Source of the DNA: Halovenus carboxidivorans
GTDB lineage: Archaea > Halobacteriota > Halobacteria > Halobacteriales > Haloarculaceae
Reading direction: 5' to 3'
Length of the DNA: 64,000 nucleotides
Assembly: GCF_009831575.1 (NCBI RefSeq)
Contig: NZ_WUUT01000001.1
Location: forward strand, 519,345-583,344
Position numbers and translations under genes: made by a program. The notes under the pieces are model-generated. The model had not been told where the DNA came from, ran no database searches, and saw nothing but the letters and a program-made list of their open reading frames with translations. This document shows, piece by piece, positions 2,396 to 17,881 of this stretch; positions within the stretch are counted from its first letter, which is position 1, and every line of letters starts with the position of its first letter.

Positions 2396-2409
2396 TTAGG
2401 CAGACCTAA
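2396..2409 (+). promoter_or_regulatory. Iron-box-like palindrome A (TTAGGCAGACCTAA)
   Basis: Palindrome TTAGG-CAGA-CCTAA, 8 to 21 nt upstream of the ATG at 2417. A TATA-like GTATAAG lies at 2386-2392, about 27 nt before the start, so the transcript is probably leaderless and the site lies between TATA box and transcription start, a typical repressor position. The half-sites match those of DtxR/IdeR iron repressors; the exact 14-mer recurs at 4561 and 11550. Confidence 0.75.
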
Positions 2410-2416
2410 TCCGGGT

Positions 2417-2962
2417 ATGGAGCTGACCCGCCGTGACGCCGTCGCCGCGCTGGCCGCAATCGGTGGTGCCGGCGGCGCGGCCTACGGCTACTCCCGTCTT
2501 CGCGACGACGACTCCCCGGAGCCGTCGAGCCCCTCTGACGAGCACGTCCTCGACACGATGCAGGCGGTCGCGGAGGTCGTCTATCCGAGCGAACTCTCGG
2601 GAAGAGAGGCGTTCGTCGAGGAGTTTGCCAGCGCGCGGCTGGCGACCGACGACCACGGCGCGGGGATCAGAGAGGCGGTGGCGGTTCTGGACGACCACAC
2701 CGATACCTGGTACGACGAACAGTTCGTCTCGCTCCCGGCAGTCGTCCGTGAGAACGCCCTCGAAAACTTGGGCGCGGACGTCGCGGACGAGGATCCGACT
2801 GGCTCGACGGCCGAGCGGGTCCGTTACTATCTCGTCAACGAACTGTTGCTCGCGCTGTACAGTTCACCGACCGGCGGGAAACTCGTCGGCATCGAGAACC
2901 CGCAGGGCCACCCCGGCGGCATCGAGAGCTACCAGCAGGGCCCGGACGCACTCGACAGATGA
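2417..2962 (+). CDS. Gluconate 2-dehydrogenase subunit 3-like protein, Tat-signalled
   Basis: A 181-residue protein resembling the small subunit (subunit 3) of membrane-linked FAD sugar and gluconate dehydrogenases. The N-terminus has a twin-arginine pair (LTRRDAV, residues 4-10) followed by a short Ala/Gly-rich hydrophobic stretch, which suggests Tat export. The central part (ALYSSPTGGKLVGIENPQGH) is typical of the family. The stop overlaps the start of the GMC gene (ATGA, 2959-2962), so both are translated together. In bacterial homologues the small subunit carries the signal and takes the flavoprotein across the membrane. The start is supported by the TATA and iron box at the expected distance. 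Confidence 0.85.
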   Translation: MELTRRDAVAALAAIGGAGGAAYGYSRLRDDDSPEPSSPSDEHVLDTMQAVAEVVYPSELSGREAFVEEFASARLATDDHGAGIREAVAVLDDHTDTWYDEQFVSLPAVVRENALENLGADVADEDPTGSTAERVRYYLVNELLLALYSSPTGGKLVGIENPQGHPGGIESYQQGPDALDR

Positions 2963-4545
2963 CCGACCGAACGCCCGTCTCCGACGCTTCCGTCTGCGTG
3001 ATCGGTGCGGGACCGGCGGGCGCGCTCGTCGCGGACAGCCTCGCCGCCGACTACGAGGTAGTGGTCCTCGACGCCGGCCCGCGGTTCGACCCCGACGAGC
3101 GCGTCGACCGCCAGGAGCGGGCCATCCGGCCCTACTACGACCGCCCCGACGTGTGGGAGATGGGCGGTCCCCGCGACGATCACGACGCCAGCGGCGAGTG
3201 GTTCTACCCGCTGAACCACGCCCGCGTGAAAGGCATCGGTGGCTCGACGCTGCACTGGCAGGGGATGGTGATGCGCCTCCACGAGGACGATTTCAATTCC
3301 GGCAGCGCCCGTGGGGTCGGCCCGGACTGGCCCATCGAGTACGAGGATCTGCGCCCGTACTACGCCCGGGCGGAGCGGGAACTGGGCGTCGCCGGGGCCG
3401 ACGACAACCCCTACGGCCCGCCCCGCGAACAGCCGTATCCCCTGCCTGCCTTTCCGCCCTCCTACAGCGACTCGCTGTTCGCCGAGGCCTGCGAGCGTCT
3501 GGGCATCGACATGCACTCGGTCCCGAACGCTCGCAACTCCGAGCCCTACCAGGGGCGCAGCCAGTGTGTCGGCTACGGCACCTGCCAGCCCGTCTGTCCC
3601 TCCGGCGCGAAGTACGACGCTACCGTCCACATCGACAGCGCAGAGCGCCGCGGAGCGACCGTGATCGACCGCGCTCCGGTGCAGTATCTCGAACACGGCC
3701 CCGAACGGATCGACGCGGCCGTCTACGCCACCCCCGACGGCGAGGAACACACACAGCAGGCGGAGGCGTTCGTCCTCGCCTGCGGCGGCGTCGAGACGCC
3801 CCGACTCCTCCTGCTGTCGGCGTCAGAGACCTACCCCGACGGACTGGCCAACACGAGCGGCGCGGTCGGCCGGTACTTCATGGACCACCTCTTCGCCGGG
3901 ACCGGCGGCGTCGTCGACGAACGGACGCGTCAGAACCACGTCGGCTTCTACACGAGTTCCTCACAGCAGTTCTACGACGAGGCCGACGAGGAGTTCGCGC
4001 CGATCAAACTCGAATTCTTCAACTACGACGGCCCGTCCCCGGTCGAGACGGCGCTGTCGGCCGACGAGTGGGGCGACGACCTGCTCGGCCGACTCCGCGA
4101 GGACTACGGCAACCACCTCGGCATCGGCGCGCTGGTCGAACAGCGCCCGCAGGCAGAGAGCTACGTCGGTCTCGGCGAAGAGACCGACAACCACGGCAAC
4201 CCGGTGCCCGACGTTCACTGGACCGTCGACGACCGCGCACTGCGGACTATCGAACGGGCTAACAGGATTCAGGAGCGGATCCTGAACGAACTCGACGCGG
4301 AAATCACCTGGCAGGTCGGTCCCGACGGAACCGGGCCCGCCTACCACCACATGGGCACGACTCGAATGGGGACCGACCCCACCGACAGCGTCGTCGACCC
4401 GGAGTGTCGCACGCACGACCTCGACAACTGCTGGATCGCCTCCAGCAGCGTCTTCCCGACCGGCGGCGCGGTCAACCCGACGCTGACCATCGCCGCGCTC
4501 GCGCTCCGGACCGCGGACGCAATCGACCGCTCGCTCGATAGTTGA
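2959..4545 (+). CDS. GMC family FAD oxidoreductase with 3Fe-4S-like Cys motif
   Basis: A 528-residue glucose-methanol-choline oxidoreductase and the probable catalytic subunit of an extracytoplasmic sugar, alcohol or gluconate dehydrogenase. FAD binding is shown by VIGAGPAGALVADSL (residues 14-28) and by the C-terminal GGAVNPTLTIAALALRTAD segment. HHMGTTRMG is close to the conserved C-terminal GMC motif. Cys203-x5-Cys209-x3-Cys213-Pro has the spacing of the [3Fe-4S] cluster in bacterial FAD-glucose dehydrogenase large subunits. It has no signal peptide, so export would depend on the Tat-signalled partner encoded just upstream. No cytochrome subunit is nearby, so the electron acceptor is unknown. 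It is cotranscribed from the iron-box promoter at 2396. Confidence 0.88.
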   Translation: MTDRTPVSDASVCVIGAGPAGALVADSLAADYEVVVLDAGPRFDPDERVDRQERAIRPYYDRPDVWEMGGPRDDHDASGEWFYPLNHARVKGIGGSTLHWQGMVMRLHEDDFNSGSARGVGPDWPIEYEDLRPYYARAERELGVAGADDNPYGPPREQPYPLPAFPPSYSDSLFAEACERLGIDMHSVPNARNSEPYQGRSQCVGYGTCQPVCPSGAKYDATVHIDSAERRGATVIDRAPVQYLEHGPERIDAAVYATPDGEEHTQQAEAFVLACGGVETPRLLLLSASETYPDGLANTSGAVGRYFMDHLFAGTGGVVDERTRQNHVGFYTSSSQQFYDEADEEFAPIKLEFFNYDGPSPVETALSADEWGDDLLGRLREDYGNHLGIGALVEQRPQAESYVGLGEETDNHGNPVPDVHWTVDDRALRTIERANRIQERILNELDAEITWQVGPDGTGPAYHHMGTTRMGTDPTDSVVDPECRTHDLDNCWIASSSVFPTGGAVNPTLTIAALALRTADAIDRSLDS

Positions 4546-4560
4546 CGCGGCGACACTAAT

Positions 4561-4574
4561 TTAGGCAGACCTAA
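4561..4574 (+). promoter_or_regulatory. Iron-box-like palindrome B (TTAGGCAGACCTAA)
   Basis: Identical to box A. It lies 34-47 nt before the ATG at 4608. The likely TATA element (CTTAAC, 4579-4584) is 24-29 nt before the ATG, so this copy lies just upstream of the TATA/BRE instead of downstream of it. The geometry differs from boxes A and C and could mean activation or occlusion of the basal factors. Confidence 0.7.
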
Positions 4575-4607
4575 ACGCTTAACCGTCCCTAGTAGCAAGG
4601 CAGCACA

Positions 4608-5366
4608 ATGAGTCGAGCAGAGGACGAATCACCGGGTACAGAGGAGGAGCCATCCGTTACCGCCGTCGAATCGGTCGCCGACGACGAGCCGTACACGTTC
4701 GAGGACCTGAGTGTCGTGATGGGGACTTACAACGAGGAGGAGGCGATCGAGACGGTGCTGACGGATATCGAGGAGGTCACCGACGGCAAAGCGGAGGTCG
4801 TCTGTGTCGACGGGTCGTCCGATAGAACTCCGGAGATTGCCCGCGAACACGGTGCGACGGTGATCGAACAGGAACCGCAGGGTTACGGCGTCGCCGTGCG
4901 CGAGGCGATTCTCACGCCGGACCGACCGATCGTCGTCACGACCGACTGCGACGATACCTACCCGATGGAACAGCTCCCCGAGTTTCTCGACCTGATCAAC
5001 GAGGGGTACGACGTGGTCAGCGGCGACCGTCTCTACCACGGTGCCGAGGCGATGCCGGCGTTCAACCGACTCGGCAACCACCTCTTCGCCCTCGGCGCGA
5101 GCGTCCTGATGGGGACCCGCGTCCACGACACGACGACGGGCATGCGCGCGTACCGCCGCGAACTCGTCGAAGAGATCGAGTGGACCGAGAACACCGGCCT
5201 CTCCGCCGAACTGCTGATCCGACCGGTGATGCGCGGCTACGACGTTCGCGAGCACCCGATCAACTACGCCGAGCGCAAAGGCGAGACGAAACTCGACCCC
5301 ATCGAGGGCGGCGCTGCTATCGCCAAGTCAATCGTCAAGGTCGCGCTCGAAGAACGGTTCCGCTGA
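4608..5366 (+). CDS. GT2 glycosyltransferase, dolichyl-phosphate hexose synthase-like
   Basis: A 252-residue family 2 glycosyltransferase. VVMGTYNEEEAIETVL (residues 37-52) is the N-terminal nucleotide-binding strand, VDGSSDRTPEIA follows, and DCDDTYP (113-119) is the metal/nucleotide-binding motif characteristic of dolichyl-phosphate mannose or glucose synthases. A further YAERKGETKLDP segment near the C-terminus matches this subfamily. There is no membrane domain, unlike Haloferax AglD, which fuses such a GT2 to an LPG-synthase-type membrane region; a separate protein of that type is encoded at 11560. It is expressed alone from an iron-box promoter and converges on the GT39-like gene at 5373. 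The likely product is a dolichyl-phosphate-linked sugar; the donor is unknown. Confidence 0.85.
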   Translation: MSRAEDESPGTEEEPSVTAVESVADDEPYTFEDLSVVMGTYNEEEAIETVLTDIEEVTDGKAEVVCVDGSSDRTPEIAREHGATVIEQEPQGYGVAVREAILTPDRPIVVTTDCDDTYPMEQLPEFLDLINEGYDVVSGDRLYHGAEAMPAFNRLGNHLFALGASVLMGTRVHDTTTGMRAYRRELVEEIEWTENTGLSAELLIRPVMRGYDVREHPINYAERKGETKLDPIEGGAAIAKSIVKVALEERFR

Positions 5367-5372
5367 CGGTCC

Positions 5373-7430
5373 TCACTCGCCTTTTACGGAGAGATTCGCT
5401 CGCATCGAAATCCCGTCGCGGTGCTCGCCGGGCACGTACGCGGACTCGCCGCCACACCGCGAGGGGACCCGACACACCTCCAGATACGGCGACAGCGCCC
5501 GGTACTGCCCCTCCTCGCGGATCAGCGGCAGCCTGACGACGTACTCGAAGCCGCCGAGGCCACCCTGTCCGACGTAGCCGACCAACCGGAGGTCGCTCTC
5601 GCCGTCGTGGGCGACGGTGAGATTCTGCCGGAAGGCGGACGAACGGACGGCGATACTGCCGTCGTCAGCGACCACCGTCGCCTCGATTTCCTCGCTGATC
5701 CGGACGGTCGTGCTGTTGCCCTCGCCGTCGACGCTGGCTCGGAGTTGGATTACCTCCGCCGAATCCGGGACGCCGAGCGTGAGATTCATTCGCACCCGTT
5801 CGCCGCTGACGTGTTCGATCTGTCGGAGTCGCGGTGCGACCGACCGGCCGGTAAACGGTGCCCACTCGCCGCGGATCGTGTACCGGTACAGCGTCCGCTC
5901 GGGGAAGGCTTCTGCCACCGCGAACTCCCGGTGTTGGAGGGCGTAGATCACCTCCCCGTCGAAGCCGGGGTCGTTGCGCAGTTTCTGGAACGGGTGGTTG
6001 AGCCAGTCGCCGTACGGCGTCGGCAGATAGACCAGCCCGTTCTCGACGGACTGCTCCTCGAAAGGCTGGTAGGCCGTTTCGTACTCCTGGGTCGTCTCGT
6101 AGTTCTCCGCGAGCGGAACGGCGACCGCTCCGGCGGTCACCCCCGCCACGACGAGGACGGCGACGACTCCGATCGTCGGGAGCGCCCGCGCGGCGGGGCC
6201 GTCGAGCCGTCGCTGGAGGTCGACGACAGCCGACCAGAGCCACCTGAGCCCCACCGCGCAGAGTGTCACTGTCGACAGCAGCAGTCCGACGTGGTAGTAC
6301 GGACCGAGCACGGCGACGAGCCCGTCGCTGGGGTCGCCGAGTTCACCGAGGACGTTCAGCGTCCCCCAGAAGTAGACGTTTCCGAGTGTGATCGTCAGCC
6401 CCGTCCCGAGGACTGCGAGTAACCGAGGATCGGTCCGTCGCGTCGTGTCTCGGAGGACTGTGCCGGCGCCGACCGCAGCGATCACGCCCCCGAGCGGCGC
6501 GGCCGGCACCCACCGGGTGAGATAGTACCAGAGGTTCCGAGCGTTCGCTTCTATTGCCAGCGCGGGCGTGTACTCACGGTCGTAGCCGGCGATTTCCCGT
6601 TCACCGAAGCCGAGTCCGTCCCGCGGGGCGAAGGCCTCGTAGGGGAACAGCAGGGGGTCGCCCGTCATGACGGCGTTGTAGCTCAGCGCGACGGTGACGC
6701 CGACCAGGCCGAGCGCGGCGATGATCGCCTGTCGCAGTATCGTCGCCCGGTCGAGGCTCCGCAGCGTCCACAGCGCGTGGCAGACGAACGGGGTTGCGAA
6801 CAGCACGGCAGTGTACGGGCGTGCCCAGAAGGACAGCCCCACCACCGCCCCGGCGACGGCGGCCCACCGTCCGCTGTCGAGGCGGTCGGCCCGAAGATAC
6901 GCCCACGCGAACAGCAGATTCAACGTGAACGCCGGCACGTACGGGAGAAAGACCGCCGCCTGGAGGACGAACAGCGGTGAGACGACGAGTAGCCCCGCCG
7001 CGAGCAGTCCGGTTCTGTCGTCGATCACCTCGCTGACGACGGCGTCGGTCAGCGCGACGGCCAGCGCGGCCAGCACGGCCAGCGTGAGCCGATACGAGCC
7101 GACGAGACCGCCGAGCGCGAACAGCCCGGCCGTGACCGGCGTGTACTTGGGGTAGATTCCCTCGCCCTCGGCGACGAAAAACCACGGCCGAAACGACTCC
7201 TCGACGGGTGGGTACATCCGCAACTGCCCGTCGAGCAGCATCTCCGCCTGCTGGAGATAGACGGCCTCGTCGTGGTTGGACGTCAGATGCGGGAAGACGC
7301 CCTCCCCGATCAGAAAGACGCCGACGCCGGCCAGCACCGCCAGTACCAACGTGGCCTGTCGGTCCCGGGTCAACTCCGAGCGGCACCGCTCTCGCAGTCG
7401 ATCGAGTCGGGTGTCGGCCGTCGCCGTCAT
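5373..7430 (-). CDS. GT39-like (PMT/ArnT-type) membrane glycosyltransferase
   Basis: A 685-residue polytopic protein. A short cytoplasmic N-terminus is followed by a first membrane helix and the external-loop motif SNHDEAVYLQQA, in which Asp54-Glu55 match the acidic pair of GT-C enzymes. About eleven helices follow, then a soluble C-terminal domain of roughly 230 residues rich in beta strands. GT-C enzymes take sugars from polyprenyl- or dolichyl-phosphate and add them to proteins, lipids or glycans on the outer face, as AglS does in haloarchaeal N-glycosylation. The ATG at 7430 was preferred to the upstream extension, which overlaps the permease gene out of character. It is the third gene of the iron-transport unit (10333 to 5373), an unexpected partner there. 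Confidence 0.82.
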   Translation of the reverse strand: MTATADTRLDRLRERCRSELTRDRQATLVLAVLAGVGVFLIGEGVFPHLTSNHDEAVYLQQAEMLLDGQLRMYPPVEESFRPWFFVAEGEGIYPKYTPVTAGLFALGGLVGSYRLTLAVLAALAVALTDAVVSEVIDDRTGLLAAGLLVVSPLFVLQAAVFLPYVPAFTLNLLFAWAYLRADRLDSGRWAAVAGAVVGLSFWARPYTAVLFATPFVCHALWTLRSLDRATILRQAIIAALGLVGVTVALSYNAVMTGDPLLFPYEAFAPRDGLGFGEREIAGYDREYTPALAIEANARNLWYYLTRWVPAAPLGGVIAAVGAGTVLRDTTRRTDPRLLAVLGTGLTITLGNVYFWGTLNVLGELGDPSDGLVAVLGPYYHVGLLLSTVTLCAVGLRWLWSAVVDLQRRLDGPAARALPTIGVVAVLVVAGVTAGAVAVPLAENYETTQEYETAYQPFEEQSVENGLVYLPTPYGDWLNHPFQKLRNDPGFDGEVIYALQHREFAVAEAFPERTLYRYTIRGEWAPFTGRSVAPRLRQIEHVSGERVRMNLTLGVPDSAEVIQLRASVDGEGNSTTVRISEEIEATVVADDGSIAVRSSAFRQNLTVAHDGESDLRLVGYVGQGGLGGFEYVVRLPLIREEGQYRALSPYLEVCRVPSRCGGESAYVPGEHRDGISMRANLSVKGE

Positions 7431-7464
7431 ACTGTTCTCACCTCCTCTCCGAGCGCCCGGTGGC

Positions 7465-9129
7465 TCAGGTGCCGTCGTAGCCGTCCTGCCGAAGGATGAC
7501 GACCATCGACAGTGCCGAGACACAGACCAAGAGTAGCGCCGGCACGGCGGCCTGACCGTAGTATGCGGCTTCCTGGACCTGCCAGATGTAGGTGACGACC
7601 GTCTGGCTGCCGATCGGTGCCAGGATGAGCGTCGCCGGCAACTCCTTCATCGTCGTCAGGAAGACCAGCGCTCCGCCCGCGACCAGCCCCGGGGTGATCT
7701 GCGGTAACACCACTCGACGGAACGACCGCAGCGGCGAATCGCCCATCGACCGAGCGGCCTCGACGTACTTGGGGTCGACCTGCAGAATCGAGGATTTCAT
7801 CGTTCCGATGGCCTGCGGGACGAACCGGATCACGTACGCGAACACGAGGATAACGACCGTCTTGTACAGCGCCACCCGGAGCCCGAAGGAGATCAGCGCG
7901 AGACCGACGACGATCCCCGGGGTCGCGTAGCCGATGTAGCTGGCTCGTTCGGGCAGCGAGGCCAGCCTGGAGTCGCCCCGAGCGGAGAGATACGCGAGCG
8001 GCAGGCCGACCACCACAGAGATGATCGCCGCCGCGAGCGAGACGCTCATCGAGTTGAGCACGTAGCCGAACTCGAACTCGAAGCCGCCCGCCGCGTAGCC
8101 CGGGGAGGGCCGGCGCAGCCACATGACGAGGATGCCGATCGGCAGCGCGAGTCCGAGGCCGGCGATCAGCGCACAGAACCCGACCGCCGGCCACTTCCAG
8201 TAGCCGAGACTGATCCGACTCGGGTCGCGGTCGCCGCTCGAGACGTACGCCCCCTCGTTGCTGGCGCTGATGCGCGACTCCAGCCGCAGGATGACGACCG
8301 TCAACACCAGCAACAGAAGCGAGAGCACGGCGGCCCGTCCGAGCGCGAAGTTGTCGTACCAGACGTAGATCATCCGGGTGAACACGTCGTAGCGCATGAT
8401 CTGCGGCGTTCCGAAATCCGACAGCGTGTACAGCGCCACCAGGAGCGATCCGGCCGCGATTCCCGGCTTGATCTGTGGCAGCGTCACCCGCCGAAAGGCC
8501 TCCCACCGGGTGTGGTTCAGCGTCCGCGCGGCCTCGACGACCGTCCCGTCGAAGGCGAGCAACGACGCCCGCGTCGTCAGGTAGACGTACGGATACGTGT
8601 ACAGCGTCAACACGAGCGTCGCGCCGAGCAGTCCGTATATCTCGGGCAGTTGTTCGACACCCAGCGGGGCGAGAATATCCTGTAAGACCCCGCGCGGACC
8701 GAACGCCGAGACGAAGGCGAAGGCGCCGATATAGCTGGGAATGACGAGCGGTAGCGCCGCGACGACGGTCCAGAACCGCCGGAAGGGAAGGTCGGTCTGA
8801 ACGGTCAACACCGCCAGCGGCACGCCGATCAGGATCGAACAGCCCGTGACGGTGGCGGTCAACACCACCGAGTTGACGATGATGTCGAGCGTGTTGGCGC
8901 TCGAGACGAACGCGGTGATTTCCTCGAAGCCGAGCGCGCCTGCCTCCCGAAGCAGCCACGCGAACGGCGTCAACAGAAGCAGCGCGATCAGCGTCGCCAG
9001 GAGGGCAAGCCCGACCGCGAACGGCCGCGAAGACTCGAATATCGCCTGTAGCCGCTGGCGTCCGTCGTCGAGTCGCGCCAGCAGTCGACGGCGACGGGAT
9101 CGTTCGGTTGACTCCGGTGTACCGTCCAT
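7465..9129 (-). CDS. Iron(III)-type ABC transporter permease, fused dimer
   Basis: A 554-residue integral membrane protein made of two homologous halves, each with about six helices. Each half has the EAA loop that contacts the ATPase: EAARTLNHTRWEAFRRVTLP in the first and EAARSMGDSPLRSFRRVVLP in the second. This arrangement is that of FbpB/SfuB/ThiP-type permeases for ferric iron or thiamine. It lies 25 nt downstream of the binding-protein gene and 34 nt upstream of the GT39-like gene. No ATP-binding subunit is encoded in the window, which is unusual for this type of transporter; it must be supplied in trans. The iron box in front of the unit supports iron as substrate. Confidence 0.9.
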   Translation of the reverse strand: MDGTPESTERSRRRRLLARLDDGRQRLQAIFESSRPFAVGLALLATLIALLLLTPFAWLLREAGALGFEEITAFVSSANTLDIIVNSVVLTATVTGCSILIGVPLAVLTVQTDLPFRRFWTVVAALPLVIPSYIGAFAFVSAFGPRGVLQDILAPLGVEQLPEIYGLLGATLVLTLYTYPYVYLTTRASLLAFDGTVVEAARTLNHTRWEAFRRVTLPQIKPGIAAGSLLVALYTLSDFGTPQIMRYDVFTRMIYVWYDNFALGRAAVLSLLLLVLTVVILRLESRISASNEGAYVSSGDRDPSRISLGYWKWPAVGFCALIAGLGLALPIGILVMWLRRPSPGYAAGGFEFEFGYVLNSMSVSLAAAIISVVVGLPLAYLSARGDSRLASLPERASYIGYATPGIVVGLALISFGLRVALYKTVVILVFAYVIRFVPQAIGTMKSSILQVDPKYVEAARSMGDSPLRSFRRVVLPQITPGLVAGGALVFLTTMKELPATLILAPIGSQTVVTYIWQVQEAAYYGQAAVPALLLVCVSALSMVVILRQDGYDGT

Positions 9130-9154
9130 CCATCTGGAGTTTGGCGTCTGCTCG

Positions 9155-10333
9155 TTAGAGGATTCCGGTTTCGTTCAACAGTTCGAGCGTCGGTTGCGTG
9201 TCTGCCAGTTCCGCGAGATCGATCTCCGGCGGGTTCAGTTCGTCGATGGTCGGCAGTCCACCCACGGGATCGACGCCCGGAATCGTCGGGTACGCGAACG
9301 TCCGGGTCGCGAAGAACTCCTGGGCCTCCGCCGAGAGGAGATGTCGGATGAAGTTCTCGGCGAGTTCGGGGCTGCTGGCCCCCTCGATGATCTGCGCACC
9401 GGAGACGTTGATCAGCGCGCCCGCGTCGCCGCTGGTGAACGCCAGTTCGATGGGGGCGTTCTGACGCTGGCTGCGGACGCGCAGCGCGTAGTAGTGGTTC
9501 GCGAAGCCGGCGTTGAGCGCGCCGTTTGCCACCTCGTTGGAGATGAGGAACTCGTTGTTGAACTCCTCGACACCGGCGCTGACCATGTCGTTCAGCCAGG
9601 CTCGCGTCTCGGATTCCCCGCGGATCAGCCGCATCGCGGTGATGAAGGACTGGAAGGCTCCGTAGGTGGGTGCCCAGCCCATCGAGCCGTCGAGCGCCGC
9701 CGTCCCGGGGAAGTCCTGCACCGTGTCCGGGATGTCGGAGGCGCTCAGCTGGTTGGTGTTGTACGGCACCGCACGGGCGCGACCGGCGAAACCGATCCAT
9801 CCCTCGGCCTGTAGCGCCGCGGGGACCAGGTCGGTCGTCTCCGAGGACAGCGACTGTGCCGCGTCGCTCTGTGCGACGTTGCCCAACGCTCCGGCGTCGA
9901 CCGCGAGGAAAAGGTCCGCTGGGCTCGCGCCGGCGTCGACCTCCTCGGTGATCTGGTTCGAGAGCTGACTCGACGAGCCGCGAGAGGACTCGTACTCGAA
10001 GTCCGGGTAGATCTGACCGAACAGATCGATCAGGTCGAGATACAGCCCACTCTCCCCGCCGCCGAGATAGAAGACGAGTTCGCCTTCGAGATCCGGCAGG
10101 TCCGCGATCGAGGTCCCGCCGGGCTCGGGCCGTTCCGACACCAGCGGCCCCGAACCGCGGAAATCGGAGATGCTGAACTCGAGCGCTTCGCCGTTGTCGT
10201 CCCCGCCTAGCATGCCGAAACAGCCCGCCAGCCCCGCCGTACTCGCCGCCGCGGCACTCGCCAGAAACTGACGGCGTCTCGTGCCGTTCGTCCGCCCGAT
10301 TCGACTGTCGCTGTGTTCGCGTTCGTTGGTCAT
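9155..10333 (-). CDS. Iron(III)-type ABC transporter substrate-binding lipoprotein
   Basis: A 392-residue extracytoplasmic solute-binding protein of the FbpA/SfuA class. The N-terminus has a twin-arginine motif (TRRRQFLAS, residues 18-26), a hydrophobic stretch and a lipobox ending in Cys38 (LAGC), so it is a Tat-exported lipoprotein, as usual in haloarchaea. LVFYLGGGESGLYLDLIDLF and later SGDAGALINVSG are typical of the periplasmic-binding fold. It is the first gene of a three-gene unit with the permease and the GT39-like enzyme. The ATG at 10333 is 5 nt from iron box C, and a TATA-like ACATATAACC lies on the minus strand about 27 nt upstream, giving a leaderless start. Confidence 0.92.
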   Translation of the reverse strand: MTNEREHSDSRIGRTNGTRRRQFLASAAAASTAGLAGCFGMLGGDDNGEALEFSISDFRGSGPLVSERPEPGGTSIADLPDLEGELVFYLGGGESGLYLDLIDLFGQIYPDFEYESSRGSSSQLSNQITEEVDAGASPADLFLAVDAGALGNVAQSDAAQSLSSETTDLVPAALQAEGWIGFAGRARAVPYNTNQLSASDIPDTVQDFPGTAALDGSMGWAPTYGAFQSFITAMRLIRGESETRAWLNDMVSAGVEEFNNEFLISNEVANGALNAGFANHYYALRVRSQRQNAPIELAFTSGDAGALINVSGAQIIEGASSPELAENFIRHLLSAEAQEFFATRTFAYPTIPGVDPVGGLPTIDELNPPEIDLAELADTQPTLELLNETGIL

Positions 10334-10337
10334 TGTT

Positions 10338-10351
10338 TTAGGGTTGCCTAA
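10338..10351 (-). promoter_or_regulatory. Iron-box-like palindrome C (TTAGGGTTGCCTAA)
   Basis: It lies 5-18 nt upstream of the binding-protein ATG (10333), between the TATA-like element (10357-10366) and the expected transcription start. The flanks match boxes A, B and D, while the central bases are GTTG instead of CAGA, as expected for a spacer. Its location before an iron-type ABC transporter is the main reason to read the whole set as iron boxes. Confidence 0.78.
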
Positions 10352-10372
10352 ATGACGGTTATATGTGTCGGT

Positions 10373-11536
10373 TCAGTCGTCCGCCGGGACTCGCTTGAGC
10401 GCGCTCAGCGCGTCGAGCCAGTCGTGCATGTGCTCGCCGACGTACGGCAGGAACTCGCCGTTGCGGTACGCGTCGGTATCCGCCGCACAGAGCGCGTCGG
10501 CCATCGCGCGGTAGGCGTCGACGTAGTTGTCCGCGCCCGTTCCGGCCTCGTCTACTAATTCCCAGATGTGCTCGTTCAGTTCGAGACCGGCGACCTCGTT
10601 GTGCAGGTCGTCGAAGGTGGACCGGGCGGCCTTGTTGTGCTCACAGAGCGGCCGGCCGTTGTAGACCTGCTTGCCCAGCAGATCGCAGGCCCGCTTGAGG
10701 AAGACGCCGCTCCAGATGTCGTCGAACCGGCCCACGTCCCACTCGTTGTCGTCCATCGGGAGCTGGTAGAAGGCGGGGATCACTTCCCGCCGGAAGGCCA
10801 GATTCATCGAACAGACCGTGAGGTAGTTGCCCTCCGCGGCGACGAAATCCGCGCCGAAGTCGTCCTTTTCGGTCCGGGTCTGAGCCTGTCCCTGCAGATC
10901 CCCGTCCATCAGGATCCGCACCGCGTCCAGGTCCGGCACGTTCGTCCACAGCCCCTGCGAGGCGACGATATCGCCCTGTTCGATGGTCTCCGTCCCCGTC
11001 GTAACCGTCTCGTCCATCGCCGAATACGGGTAGCCGCGTGGATACAACCCGTGTTCCTCCGCCTCCTGATAGAGGACGTTCACCCACTGCGTGTCCGAGG
11101 AGACGGACTCGATCTCACCCTCGAAAGCGAGGTTCTCCATGTGACCGCCGAAGAAGTCGCTGTCGTGTGGCAGGGTGTCGTCGTCGATGAAAACGCCGTA
11201 CTCGAAGCGAGGGTTGTCCCACATGTACAGCAGGCCGAAACTCGTCTCGGCGTGACTCGCCGCCGGCACGACGTGGCCGTACTCCTCGATGTCCCGATCC
11301 TCGTACCACTGCTCGCGGCGACTCCCGTCGAAGACCGCCCCGGAGACGTCCAGGTCGTCCAGCATGGCCTCCATCTGCTCCGTCTCGCAGAAGTCCTCCG
11401 TCACCAGCACGAAAAACAGCCGCGACGTGTCGAACCCGTGTTCACGGGCGTTCTCGACGTAGGCCCGCACGCAGTCGTACTCCCGAATCGTCGGGACGAT
11501 CACACAGATGTCTTGCTCTCCTGTCCGCTGTCTCAT
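10373..11536 (-). CDS. Reversibly glycosylated polypeptide / UDP-arabinopyranose mutase family protein
   Basis: A 387-residue protein of the plant RGP (alpha-1,4-glucan-protein synthase) family. Visible family features are VPTIRE near the N-terminus, the acidic VFIDDDTLPH motif (Asp118-120), PRGYPYS (166-172), whose Arg matches the arginine that plant RGPs glycosylate on themselves, and the FDDIWSG motif (271-277). Plant members interconvert UDP-arabinopyranose and UDP-arabinofuranose; prokaryotic members are little studied. It is soluble, with no signal or membrane segment. I chose the ATG at 11536 over a TTG three codons upstream. It has its own iron box 14 nt upstream. It may prepare a nucleotide sugar for the glycosyltransferases of this region (inference). 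Confidence 0.85.
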   Translation of the reverse strand: MRQRTGEQDICVIVPTIREYDCVRAYVENAREHGFDTSRLFFVLVTEDFCETEQMEAMLDDLDVSGAVFDGSRREQWYEDRDIEEYGHVVPAASHAETSFGLLYMWDNPRFEYGVFIDDDTLPHDSDFFGGHMENLAFEGEIESVSSDTQWVNVLYQEAEEHGLYPRGYPYSAMDETVTTGTETIEQGDIVASQGLWTNVPDLDAVRILMDGDLQGQAQTRTEKDDFGADFVAAEGNYLTVCSMNLAFRREVIPAFYQLPMDDNEWDVGRFDDIWSGVFLKRACDLLGKQVYNGRPLCEHNKAARSTFDDLHNEVAGLELNEHIWELVDEAGTGADNYVDAYRAMADALCAADTDAYRNGEFLPYVGEHMHDWLDALSALKRVPADD

Positions 11537-11549
11537 ACGGCCCAATTTT

Positions 11550-11563
11550 TTAGGCAGACCTAA
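11550..11563 (-). promoter_or_regulatory. Iron-box-like palindrome D (TTAGGCAGACCTAA)
   Basis: Third exact copy. It lies 14-27 nt before the ATG of the RGP-family gene (11536) and overlaps the stop codon (11560-11562) of the upstream LPG-synthase-type gene. The likely TATA element on the minus strand (AATCTTTAGG, about 11560-11569) overlaps the box, so binding would block TBP access. It gives the RGP gene separate control although the upstream gene has the same orientation. Confidence 0.75.
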
Positions 11564-12636
11564 AGATTTGACGATTCGGCCTCCGGCTGTGGCGGCTCCT
11601 CGCTCACCGTGGTCGGGGAGACGTTCAGCGCGAGGGCGCTCGCCGCGCCGCCGAGGACGGTGACGCCGTTTTTCAGGGCGTGGTCGACGATGGCGGCGGC
11701 GAGCGCGGTGGCCGCGGCGACCGGTGAGACGGCGACGACCACCGCGGTGAATGCGGCCTCGTACAGCCCGATACCGCCCTGCGAGAGCGGTAGCACCTTC
11801 GCCAGGTTCCCGACGGTTACGGCGAGAGTTCCGATGGCGGCGGTCGTCGACGGCGAGAGGGCGTCGGTCACGGCCCGGAGGACCAGCACCGCAGTCAGCA
11901 CGTCGAGCGCCCAGACCGCGAGACTTCCGACGCCGATTCGACCGATCGCTCGGGGGTCGGCCGCGACGACCCGCACGTCCCCGCCGAAGTTCACGACGGC
12001 GTCGACAACCGGAGCGACTGCCGATCCCTCCGCTCGACTCTCAAGCCACGCGCCGAAGTCTCGTCTGCTGCGGGCGAGGGCCACGAGCACGACGGCCGCA
12101 CAGATCGCACACGCCGCGACGATCCCCGCGCCGAGGATCGTCGGGCTCGACTCCCCCCCGACCGTCTGGCCGTCGAGTACCAGCCACCCGGTCGCAACCG
12201 CACCGAAACAGGCCAGCGCGAGCAGATCGAAGAGTCGCTCGACGGTCAGCGACGCCAACCCCGTGGTGTAGGCCACGTCCCGCCGCGTCTTCAGCAGGTA
12301 CGCCCGGACCCCGTCACCCGCCCGCGCGGGCACGACGAGGTTCGCGAGCTGGCTCACGAAGACCGCGGCCGTGAGGAACCGCCGTCCGCAACGCCGGCCC
12401 ATGACGCCGAGAATCCGGTCGTACCGGTGACCGCGGAGCGGCCACGACGCCGCGTACACCCCGACCGCCGCGGCCAGCAGTCGGGGGTCCGTCAGCCGAA
12501 CTGCGTCGACGACGCGGTCTCCATCGACCGTCCTCGACGCGACGACGACTCCGACGACCACCACCAGTATCGTCCCCAGCAGGCTGAGCCGCCGCTGTGT
12601 GAGGTAGCTGGCGTCTCCCTCGGCCGACGACTCCAT
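11560..12636 (-). CDS. LPG-synthase-type (UPF0104) membrane protein, AglD C-domain/flippase-like
   Basis: A 358-residue polytopic protein of the lysylphosphatidylglycerol-synthase transmembrane family. It has about eight helices. The segments RGHRYDRILGVMGRRCGRRFLTA, VPARAGDGVRAYLLKTR and LPLSQGGIGLYEAAFTAV contain the conserved Arg/Gly and SQGGIGLYE motifs of the family. In Haloferax AglD this domain is fused to a GT2 dolichyl-phosphate mannose synthase; here the GT2 is a separate gene at 4608. A role in handling or flipping a polyprenyl-linked sugar is plausible. The ATG at 12636 was chosen over an upstream TTG because the TATA (ATATTTAAG, 12658-12666) is then at the right distance. Confidence 0.82.
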   Translation of the reverse strand: MESSAEGDASYLTQRRLSLLGTILVVVVGVVVASRTVDGDRVVDAVRLTDPRLLAAAVGVYAASWPLRGHRYDRILGVMGRRCGRRFLTAAVFVSQLANLVVPARAGDGVRAYLLKTRRDVAYTTGLASLTVERLFDLLALACFGAVATGWLVLDGQTVGGESSPTILGAGIVAACAICAAVVLVALARSRRDFGAWLESRAEGSAVAPVVDAVVNFGGDVRVVAADPRAIGRIGVGSLAVWALDVLTAVLVLRAVTDALSPSTTAAIGTLAVTVGNLAKVLPLSQGGIGLYEAAFTAVVVAVSPVAAATALAAAIVDHALKNGVTVLGGAASALALNVSPTTVSEEPPQPEAESSNL

Positions 12637-12661
12637 ACCCACCGCTGACCGCTCCAAATAT

Positions 12662-12675
12662 TTAAGCCCACCTAA
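12662..12675 (-). promoter_or_regulatory. Iron-box-like palindrome E, degenerate (TTAAGCCCACCTAA)
   Basis: It has one change in the left half-site (TTAAG for TTAGG). It lies 26-39 nt upstream of the ATG at 12636 and overlaps the TATA-like ATATTTAAG on its distal side. It is weaker than boxes A-D but at a comparable promoter position in front of another glycan-type gene of the same region. Confidence 0.55.
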
Positions 12676-17110: not shown

Positions 17111-17196
17111 GCTGTCTCACCGGCACTGCTCTCGCCTTCCGGTGTGGTCGGTCACGCGTCGAATACGTTGAAGTGGCTGTAGCCGTTTCGCCGGAT

Positions 17197-17745
17197 ATGG
17201 ACCAGATCTTCGCACCGTGGCGTATCGACTGGGTCGAACGCGAGGGCAACGAGGAGTTCGACGACTGCGTCTTCTGTGAACTTCCCGACGCTGACGGCTC
17301 CGACCGGGAGTACAACCTGCTCGCGCGCGGCGAACACGCGTTCGTCCTGTTGAACAACTACCCCTACAACCCCGGCCACGCGATGGTGATCCCACACGAA
17401 CACACCGGCGAGTACCGCGACCTCGACGAGACGAGTCTCCTCGCGAAGGAACGGCTGGTCCAGCGGACAATCGACGCGATGGACGAGGCCCTCCGACCCG
17501 ACGGATACAACGTCGGCTACAACCTCGGCCACGCCGCCGCGGGCGGGTCGATCGGTGATCACCTCCACGCCCACATCGTCCCCCGCTGGGAGGGCGATAC
17601 GAACTTCATGCCCGCCATCGGGGAGACGAACGTGATCGTCGAGGCCGTCACGGACACCTACGACAGACTTCACGAGGCCTTCGAGGCTCAGGACGGTGTC
17701 ACGAGCGACCGCCCGGAGCGCGCCGTCAGCGTCGACGCCCGTTGA
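17197..17745 (+). CDS. HIT family nucleotide hydrolase
   Basis: A 182-residue histidine-triad protein that hydrolyses nucleotide phosphoramidates or diadenosine polyphosphates. CVFCEL near the N-terminus is the zinc-binding type of start, and the triad HLHAHIVPRW (His-x-His-x-His) is near residue 130. It begins MDQIFAPWRIDWV, as HIT proteins of the Ap4A-phosphorylase-like group do; the long upstream in-frame extension is not homologous and includes the neighbouring small gene in another frame. A likely terminator hairpin lies downstream at 17839-17880. Confidence 0.94.
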   Translation: MDQIFAPWRIDWVEREGNEEFDDCVFCELPDADGSDREYNLLARGEHAFVLLNNYPYNPGHAMVIPHEHTGEYRDLDETSLLAKERLVQRTIDAMDEALRPDGYNVGYNLGHAAAGGSIGDHLHAHIVPRWEGDTNFMPAIGETNVIVEAVTDTYDRLHEAFEAQDGVTSDRPERAVSVDAR

Positions 17746-17786
17746 TGTTCGGGAGAAGATTTATCGCTGAGAGAACATAGTTTGTT

Positions 17787-17881
17787 GCGGTGCGGTCGAA
17801 CGCACCCTGTTGACGGTCCAGTCCCTCGCCCGTTGTGTCTCGCACAGGCCACCCACCCCCAGGCCGTGCGAGCCATTTTTC
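17787..17881 (+). ncRNA. Candidate small RNA with two hairpins and T-run
   Basis: Between the HIT gene and the 95-residue protein gene. A TATA-like TTTATC (17760-17765) predicts transcription from about 17788. The RNA would start with a GGTGCG/CGCACC hairpin (17789-17806) and end with an 11-bp stem, CTCGCAC-a-GGCC/GGCC-GTGCGAG (17839-17872), followed by TTTTT. No reading frame of interest fits. The second hairpin alone could instead be the terminator of the HIT transcript. Confidence 0.4.

Follow-up and report, generated by a model that had tools for sequence, protein, structure and literature searches.

A palindromic box joins ferric transport to a predicted dolichyl-phosphate glycosylation module in haloarchaea

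Why would a ferric-type transporter and a set of neighboring sugar-transfer genes carry the same operator-like palindrome? The question is raised by a 64,000-nt stretch of the Halovenus carboxidivorans genome (contig NZ_WUUT01000001.1, positions 519,345 to 583,344; hereafter the window), in which a sequence-only reading had joined five units through a 14-bp palindrome, TTAGG-N4-CCTAA, and proposed an iron-responsive, dolichol-dependent glycosylation system. The observation is confirmed and is more general than first claimed, and the interpretation placed on it is partly supported, being right in outline. We favor, with moderate confidence, the reading that in most haloarchaea a DtxR-type, iron-repressed glycosylation pathway has been added to the ferric transporter, running from a GT75-like enzyme through a dolichyl-phosphate-linked sugar (Dol-P-sugar) to a membrane glycosyltransferase of the GT-C type.

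Placement and conservation of the box

All five boxes were found where they had been proposed. Box 1 (2396-2409, + strand, TTAGGCAGACCTAA) lies directly 3′ of a TATA-like GTATAAG, with the start of the Gluconate_2-dh3-like gene 7 nt on, and box 2 (4561-4574, +, TTAGGCAGACCTAA) lies upstream of the GT2 gene. The other three serve genes on the minus strand. Box 3 (10338-10351, TTAGGGTTGCCTAA; TTAGGCAACCCTAA on the gene strand) is followed 4 nt on by the FbpA start, box 4 (11550-11563, TTAGGCAGACCTAA; gene strand TTAGGTCTGCCTAA) is followed 13 nt on by the start of the GT75-like gene, and box 5 (12662-12675, TTAAGCCCACCTAA; gene strand TTAGGTGGGCTTAA), which has one mismatch, overlaps the TATA region of the UPF0104 gene. 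Each box adjoins or overlaps a TATA-like element, with an ATG about 4-33 bases on, which is the placement expected of a repressor.

The sequence-only reading had itself raised the possibility that the motif is equally common before random genes. This was not borne out: in the whole 3.25-Mb genome, the exact pattern occurs at 14 sites, compared to 1 for the control, which was the reversed pattern. Relaxed searches return background (23 sites vs 31 for the control with one mismatch allowed across the genome; 6 found vs 4.95 expected with two mismatches in the window), and one-mismatch sites were used only if conserved or supported by context. Box 5 is such a site; its TTAAG variant is found at the same position before UPF0104 in other genera, so we consider the fifth box real despite the mismatch. 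Of 30 further haloarchaeal genomes, 29 also have more exact boxes than control sites, so the box serves haloarchaea generally as an operator and is no mere local repeat.

To follow individual promoters, we used a sample of 80 loci from named haloarchaea (1.57 Mb), in which module gene starts account for 269 of the 294 exact boxes; several of the remaining 25 precede siderophore-type lipoproteins. Together with the genome count and the excess in further genomes, this rules out a chance origin of the exact boxes. The GT75-like gene is preceded by a box in 80/80 loci (78 exact) and the GT2 gene in 62/62 homologues, by an exact box in 46 and by a one-mismatch box in 16. Boxes also precede FbpA in 69/80 homologues, UPF0104 in 39/43 loci and Gluconate_2-dh3 in 47/61 homologous loci. 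The proposal that the five boxed units form one regulon is supported. The arms of the box are constant and the cores vary, with 51 different four-base cores before the GT75 gene. At module promoters an A or T flanks the palindrome on one side in 98% of sites and on the other in 96%, which places the conserved sequence nearer TTTAGG-N4-CCTAAA.

It could be argued that the glycan genes are mere neighbors hitchhiking on the regulation of the iron transporter, as the genes lie within about 12 kb in most loci. However, every unit has its own box, and GT2 and GT75 are both still boxed where about 45-94 kb lies between them, as in some Haloferacaceae and one same-family genome. Hitchhiking by clustering is therefore largely refuted, and we give this explanation very little credence.

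A co-inherited set of sugar-transfer genes

We scored presence and absence in 194 Halobacteria, counting GT2 above the NF041391 cutoff and GT-C by its DUF7846 domain (a search that also matches Haloferax volcanii among the control genomes). The GT75-like, GT2 and GT-C genes occur together in 154 genomes, and the other 40 lack all three. Many of the changes between presence and absence fall inside one genus (e.g., g4, g20, g24, g30, g38, g40 and g62), which argues against a single ancient split. Genomes that lack the module retain the ferric transporter, mostly with boxes, which makes the glycan unit an add-on to the transporter.

The GT75-like gene (10373-11536, −) had been described as similar to reversibly glycosylated polypeptide (RGP)/UDP-sugar mutases. 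The protein belongs to the family of reversibly glycosylated polypeptides and NDP-pyranose mutases (PF03214, E 1e-17) and matches MtdL (7yua) in sequence at E 5.7e-29; its predicted structure (predicted local distance difference test score, pLDDT, 79) matches the MtdL fold with Z 36.4 across 349 residues, at a root-mean-square deviation of 2.6, and the next unrelated fold scores Z about 14. Judged by sequence and predicted fold, it is a true GT75 relative. In 37 sequences aligned to MtdL, for which residue roles have been described (PMC9937993), the metal-binding Asp triad (D118-D120), the reactive R167, and D202, R270, D273 and H300 are invariant, the last four corresponding to MtdL D195, R257, D260 and H287.

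The GT2 gene (4608-5366, +) encodes a predicted dolichyl-phosphate hexose transferase without a membrane domain. The dolichyl-phosphate assignment of the sequence-only reading is borne out by a 413.5-bit match to NF041391 (cutoff 375), and the closest solved relative is the dolichol-phosphate mannose synthase 5mlz (E 3e-12).

The membrane transferase gene (5373-7430, −; PF25230, PF13231), which encodes a C-terminal extracytoplasmic DUF7846 domain, had been called GT39-like and cotranscribed with the transporter. Its position directly downstream of the transporter stands, and the enzyme is better described as GT-C of the OST/PMT/ArnT/AftB type: its model (pLDDT 85) matches OST (8age) with Z 25.8, Pmt4 with 23.5, ArnT with 23.0 and AftB with 17.9. 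N52, D54 and E55 are invariant, the acidic pair D54 and E55 corresponding to the conserved acidic residues near the first extracytoplasmic loop of GT-C enzymes. The gene follows the transporter genes in 79 of the 80 loci.

The UPF0104 gene (11560-12636, −) encodes a flippase-like membrane protein of the LPG_synthase_TM family, as had been read from the sequence (PF03706, E 2e-45; TIGR00374). It shares 45-48% identity with the C-terminal half of GT2 fusion proteins that are 604-624 aa long and have AglD architecture. A UPF0104 gene of Haloferax volcanii, HVO_1859, is 11.6-fold up under iron starvation (PMC11349517). We do not use it as support; it is probably another paralogue, since the nearest homologues of the module protein in genomes of genus g34, taken to be Haloferax, are box-less GT2-LPG_synthase_TM fusions.

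Before the GT2 gene on the plus strand are a Gluconate 2-dehydrogenase subunit 3-like protein with a twin-arginine N-terminus (2417-2962, PF13618, E 3.7e-7), in whose homologues RR occurs within the first 30 aa in 55/58, and a GMC-family FAD oxidoreductase (2959-4545, PF05199/PF00732). In Haloarcula (loci L120, L122, L124 and L131, near 17150-17790), a Gluconate_2-dh3-like gene ends the FbpABC-GT-C operon, and no GMC gene was found adjoining it. This pair could be viewed as the center of the system: an extracytoplasmic sugar oxidase would yield iron-chelating keto-sugar acids from a substrate made by the glycosyltransferases. Keto-sugar acids are able to bind iron, and the twin-arginine start and frequent boxing of Gluconate_2-dh3 are in keeping with such a role. 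However, GMC is present in only 45/80 loci, the Haloarcula genes just described have no GMC neighbor at the threshold used, and the strict unit is GT75-GT2-GT-C. We therefore think this arrangement quite unlikely and regard the GMC/Gluconate_2-dh3 pair as a less constant module member. A GalE-type SDR epimerase (1441-2367, +, PF01370) is associated with the module and is not a core part of it: it has a box in 0/25 homologues and adjoins UPF0104 in other genera.

Iron control and the candidate acceptor

The ferric-type ABC transporter recognized behind box 3 is supported. FbpA (9155-10333, −) is a ferric-binding lipoprotein with predicted ferric ligands Y281-Y282; it matches the iron-binding protein 7w3w at E 1e-42 with the Tyr-Tyr pair aligned. 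H280-Y281-Y282 is kept in >95% of 78 orthologues, of which 76 have a lipobox. The FbpB-like permease (7465-9129, −) has two BPD_transp_1 domains (PF00528, two stretches). The unit is without an ATPase, and an orphan FbpC-type ABC ATPase stands alone on contig C4 (stretch 307500-312500, 1083-2321, −), with a one-mismatch site (TTAGGCTAACCAAA, at 2325) 4 bases upstream. In other genomes the operon itself holds the FbpC-type ATPase, flanked by the permease and GT-C genes, and the orphan probably serves the FbpA-FbpB unit of the window. The sequence-only reading had missed this distant ATPase.

Outside the window, exact boxes stand before two Peripla_BP_2 lipoproteins, one of which has two boxes at a distance of 37 bp, and before a unit comprising an FAD oxidoreductase, a FecCD permease and an ABC ATPase. 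Others precede a DtxR-type reading frame, an HTH_10 regulator whose neighbor is a DtxR-type gene, and genes for a DUF5059-plastocyanin lipoprotein, a DUF7547 protein and a PAS-type protein. The genome-wide excess and promoter position of the boxes are those of the operators of a DtxR-type iron regulon, and so are the Peripla_BP_2, FecCD, FbpA/B, HTH_10 and DtxR-type genes that they mark, along with the orphan FbpC by its weak site. Because the box neighbors are iron-uptake and regulator genes, we infer iron control by a DtxR-family repressor.

The boxes might instead be read by a manganese or mixed-metal regulator of the same family (MntR-like). Several DtxR-type proteins are encoded in the genome, and one that adjoins a box weakly resembles MntR models, well under their cutoffs. 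Against this, the boxes mark importers of iron and siderophores, together with a ferric-type substrate-binding protein, and we judge a manganese or mixed-metal regulator improbable.

Some features of these other sites are recorded here in their own right. Box pairs outside the window are common, mostly 36-37 bp apart (one 26 bp), around an A+T-rich, TATA-like stretch (L025:1968/2005, L026:5048/5085, L028:5268/5305, L028:8608/8644 and L024:3626/3652). The module boxes, by contrast, are single. Pairs at 35-37 bp also occur in other genomes. The DtxR-type frame straight after an exact box (contig C1 stretch 704500-714500, 4703-5140) seems frameshifted in this assembly, either as a pseudogene or through a sequencing error. 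The 812-aa lipoprotein with DUF5059 and plastocyanin domains (L026 2609-5044, −) is a copper protein under a box pair of an iron-type regulon. The DUF7547 protein (L024 2951-3547, −) also has an upstream box pair, and boxed genes resembling it are found in Haloarcula and its relatives.

For the iron-repressed pathway that we favor, the following course may be proposed. A DtxR-family metal repressor would bind the boxes, keeping the module and the ferric and siderophore importers off when iron is plentiful. Under iron shortage, four sugar activities would be made together with the ferric FbpAB(C) transporter. The GT75-like enzyme would prepare an activated sugar, possibly a furanose; GT2 would load it onto dolichyl phosphate; the LPG-synthase-type membrane protein would help to present the lipid-linked sugar outside; and the GT-C enzyme would transfer it to an acceptor on the outer face. 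Protein families point to a Dol-P-sugar that is made inside the cell, presented outside and transferred by the GT-C enzyme; the use of dolichol in this species, the identity of the sugar and the sequence of reactions are inferences.

The least certain element is the acceptor, of which the likeliest candidate is the FbpA lipoprotein or another surface component of iron capture. Module-linked FbpA orthologues have an N-terminal extension just past the lipobox (residues about 58-84) with near-invariant GSG, R, GG and P; this signature, GSG...R..PGG, is missing from most boxed FbpA proteins of module-less genomes. The shared signature and the position of GT-C downstream of the transporter in nearly all loci make FbpA the first acceptor candidate. 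That this pathway, induced by iron starvation and perhaps handling a furanose, serves in most haloarchaea to modify FbpA is a proposal that we advance only tentatively.

Several observations weigh against the favored reading or parts of it. Boxed ferric transporters occur without glycan genes, so the glycan is not required for transport as such. UPF0104 is an inconstant member, present in 43/80 loci. A similar FbpA N-terminal signature occurs in three module-less genomes, which weakens FbpA as the acceptor; we keep the signature as a lead and not as a glycosylation site. Finally, D87 and Q229, required for mutase activity in MtdL (PMC9937993), are replaced in the haloarchaeal GT75 by an invariant H95 and by M244; the enzyme may therefore have lost or altered its mutase activity, which should not be assumed.

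A further explanation is that the iron-regulated module makes a surface polysaccharide or glycolipid that traps iron or alters the surface, FbpA not being the acceptor. AepG, a related haloarchaeal GT2, serves an acidic exopolysaccharide and not the S-layer (PMC9943897), and the fold relatives of the GT-C enzyme include the lipid- or polymer-modifying ArnT, AftA and AftB. However, no polymerase or export gene accompanies the module, and the GT-C gene stands beside transporter genes in almost all loci. We hold this explanation to be possible but doubtful.

That most haloarchaea examined have these sugar-transfer genes under the box of their iron importers points to a special surface sugar in iron-starved cells, one that the iron importer itself might carry; if FbpA is modified, surface sugar chemistry would be coupled directly to iron capture.

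Relation to known systems

Archaeal glycosylation has usually been studied via the S-layer. The module points to a second, widespread dolichyl-phosphate-type pathway, inherited as a unit and apparently regulated like iron uptake, and supplies known genes and operators, along with iron starvation as a condition, from which to trace its sugar and acceptor. We know of no earlier role for an archaeal GT75 enzyme. In our literature search, no paper linked iron control with GT75, dolichyl-phosphate transfer and a GT-C enzyme, though parts of the target list may be published in regulon studies; searches on DUF7846, NF041391 and archaeal GT75 found nothing, and PHROGs gave no match.

As in the mycobacterial route from decaprenyl-phosphate-arabinofuranose to GT-C enzymes (Emb/Aft), a furanose sugar would pass by way of a polyprenyl phosphate to a GT-C enzyme, and AftB and AftA are among the fold relatives of the GT-C model. 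Here, the furanose donor is putative, and no sign of common origin was seen at the sequence level. The GT75-like enzyme resembles the mutases MtdL and plant UAM/RGP in sequence, in its predicted fold and in keeping the Asp triad and reactive Arg. Unlike MtdL, it has the two replacements noted above and stands beside a dolichyl-phosphate route.

Among haloarchaeal systems, the AglD/AglJ N-glycosylation branch of Haloferax volcanii also combines a GT2 with an LPG_synthase_TM membrane part. Here, these are two separate genes, each boxed, whereas the fusion genes we examined have no box. The sequence-only reading had likened the system to a split AglD plus AglS pair. The analogy to a split AglD seems fair, although the module GT2 belongs to a distinct family (NF041391) and AglD was not identified by name among the fusions that match UPF0104; the AglS part of the analogy is more tentative. 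Related GT2 enzymes of haloarchaea that do not serve S-layer glycosylation have been described, namely AepG and HVO_1613; AepG of Haloarcula hispanica makes Dol-P-glucuronic acid for an acidic exopolysaccharide (PMC9943897). Like AepG, the module GT2 is predicted to charge dolichyl phosphate for something other than S-layer glycans. Unlike AepG, which has two C-terminal membrane helices and for which no iron control has been described, it is short and of the soluble type. The module could help to explain haloarchaeal dolichyl-phosphate transferases without an S-layer role.

The closest regulatory parallel is with DtxR/IdeR-type iron regulons, including the haloarchaeal Idr, SirR and TroR, in which palindromic TTAGG...CCTAA sites lie at the promoters of ferric and siderophore transport and regulator genes. 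The bacterial DtxR box is 19 bp, and the box described here is 14/16 bp, with a putative DtxR-family binding protein. What further sets this regulon apart from DtxR/IdeR regulons is that it includes a glycosylation module.

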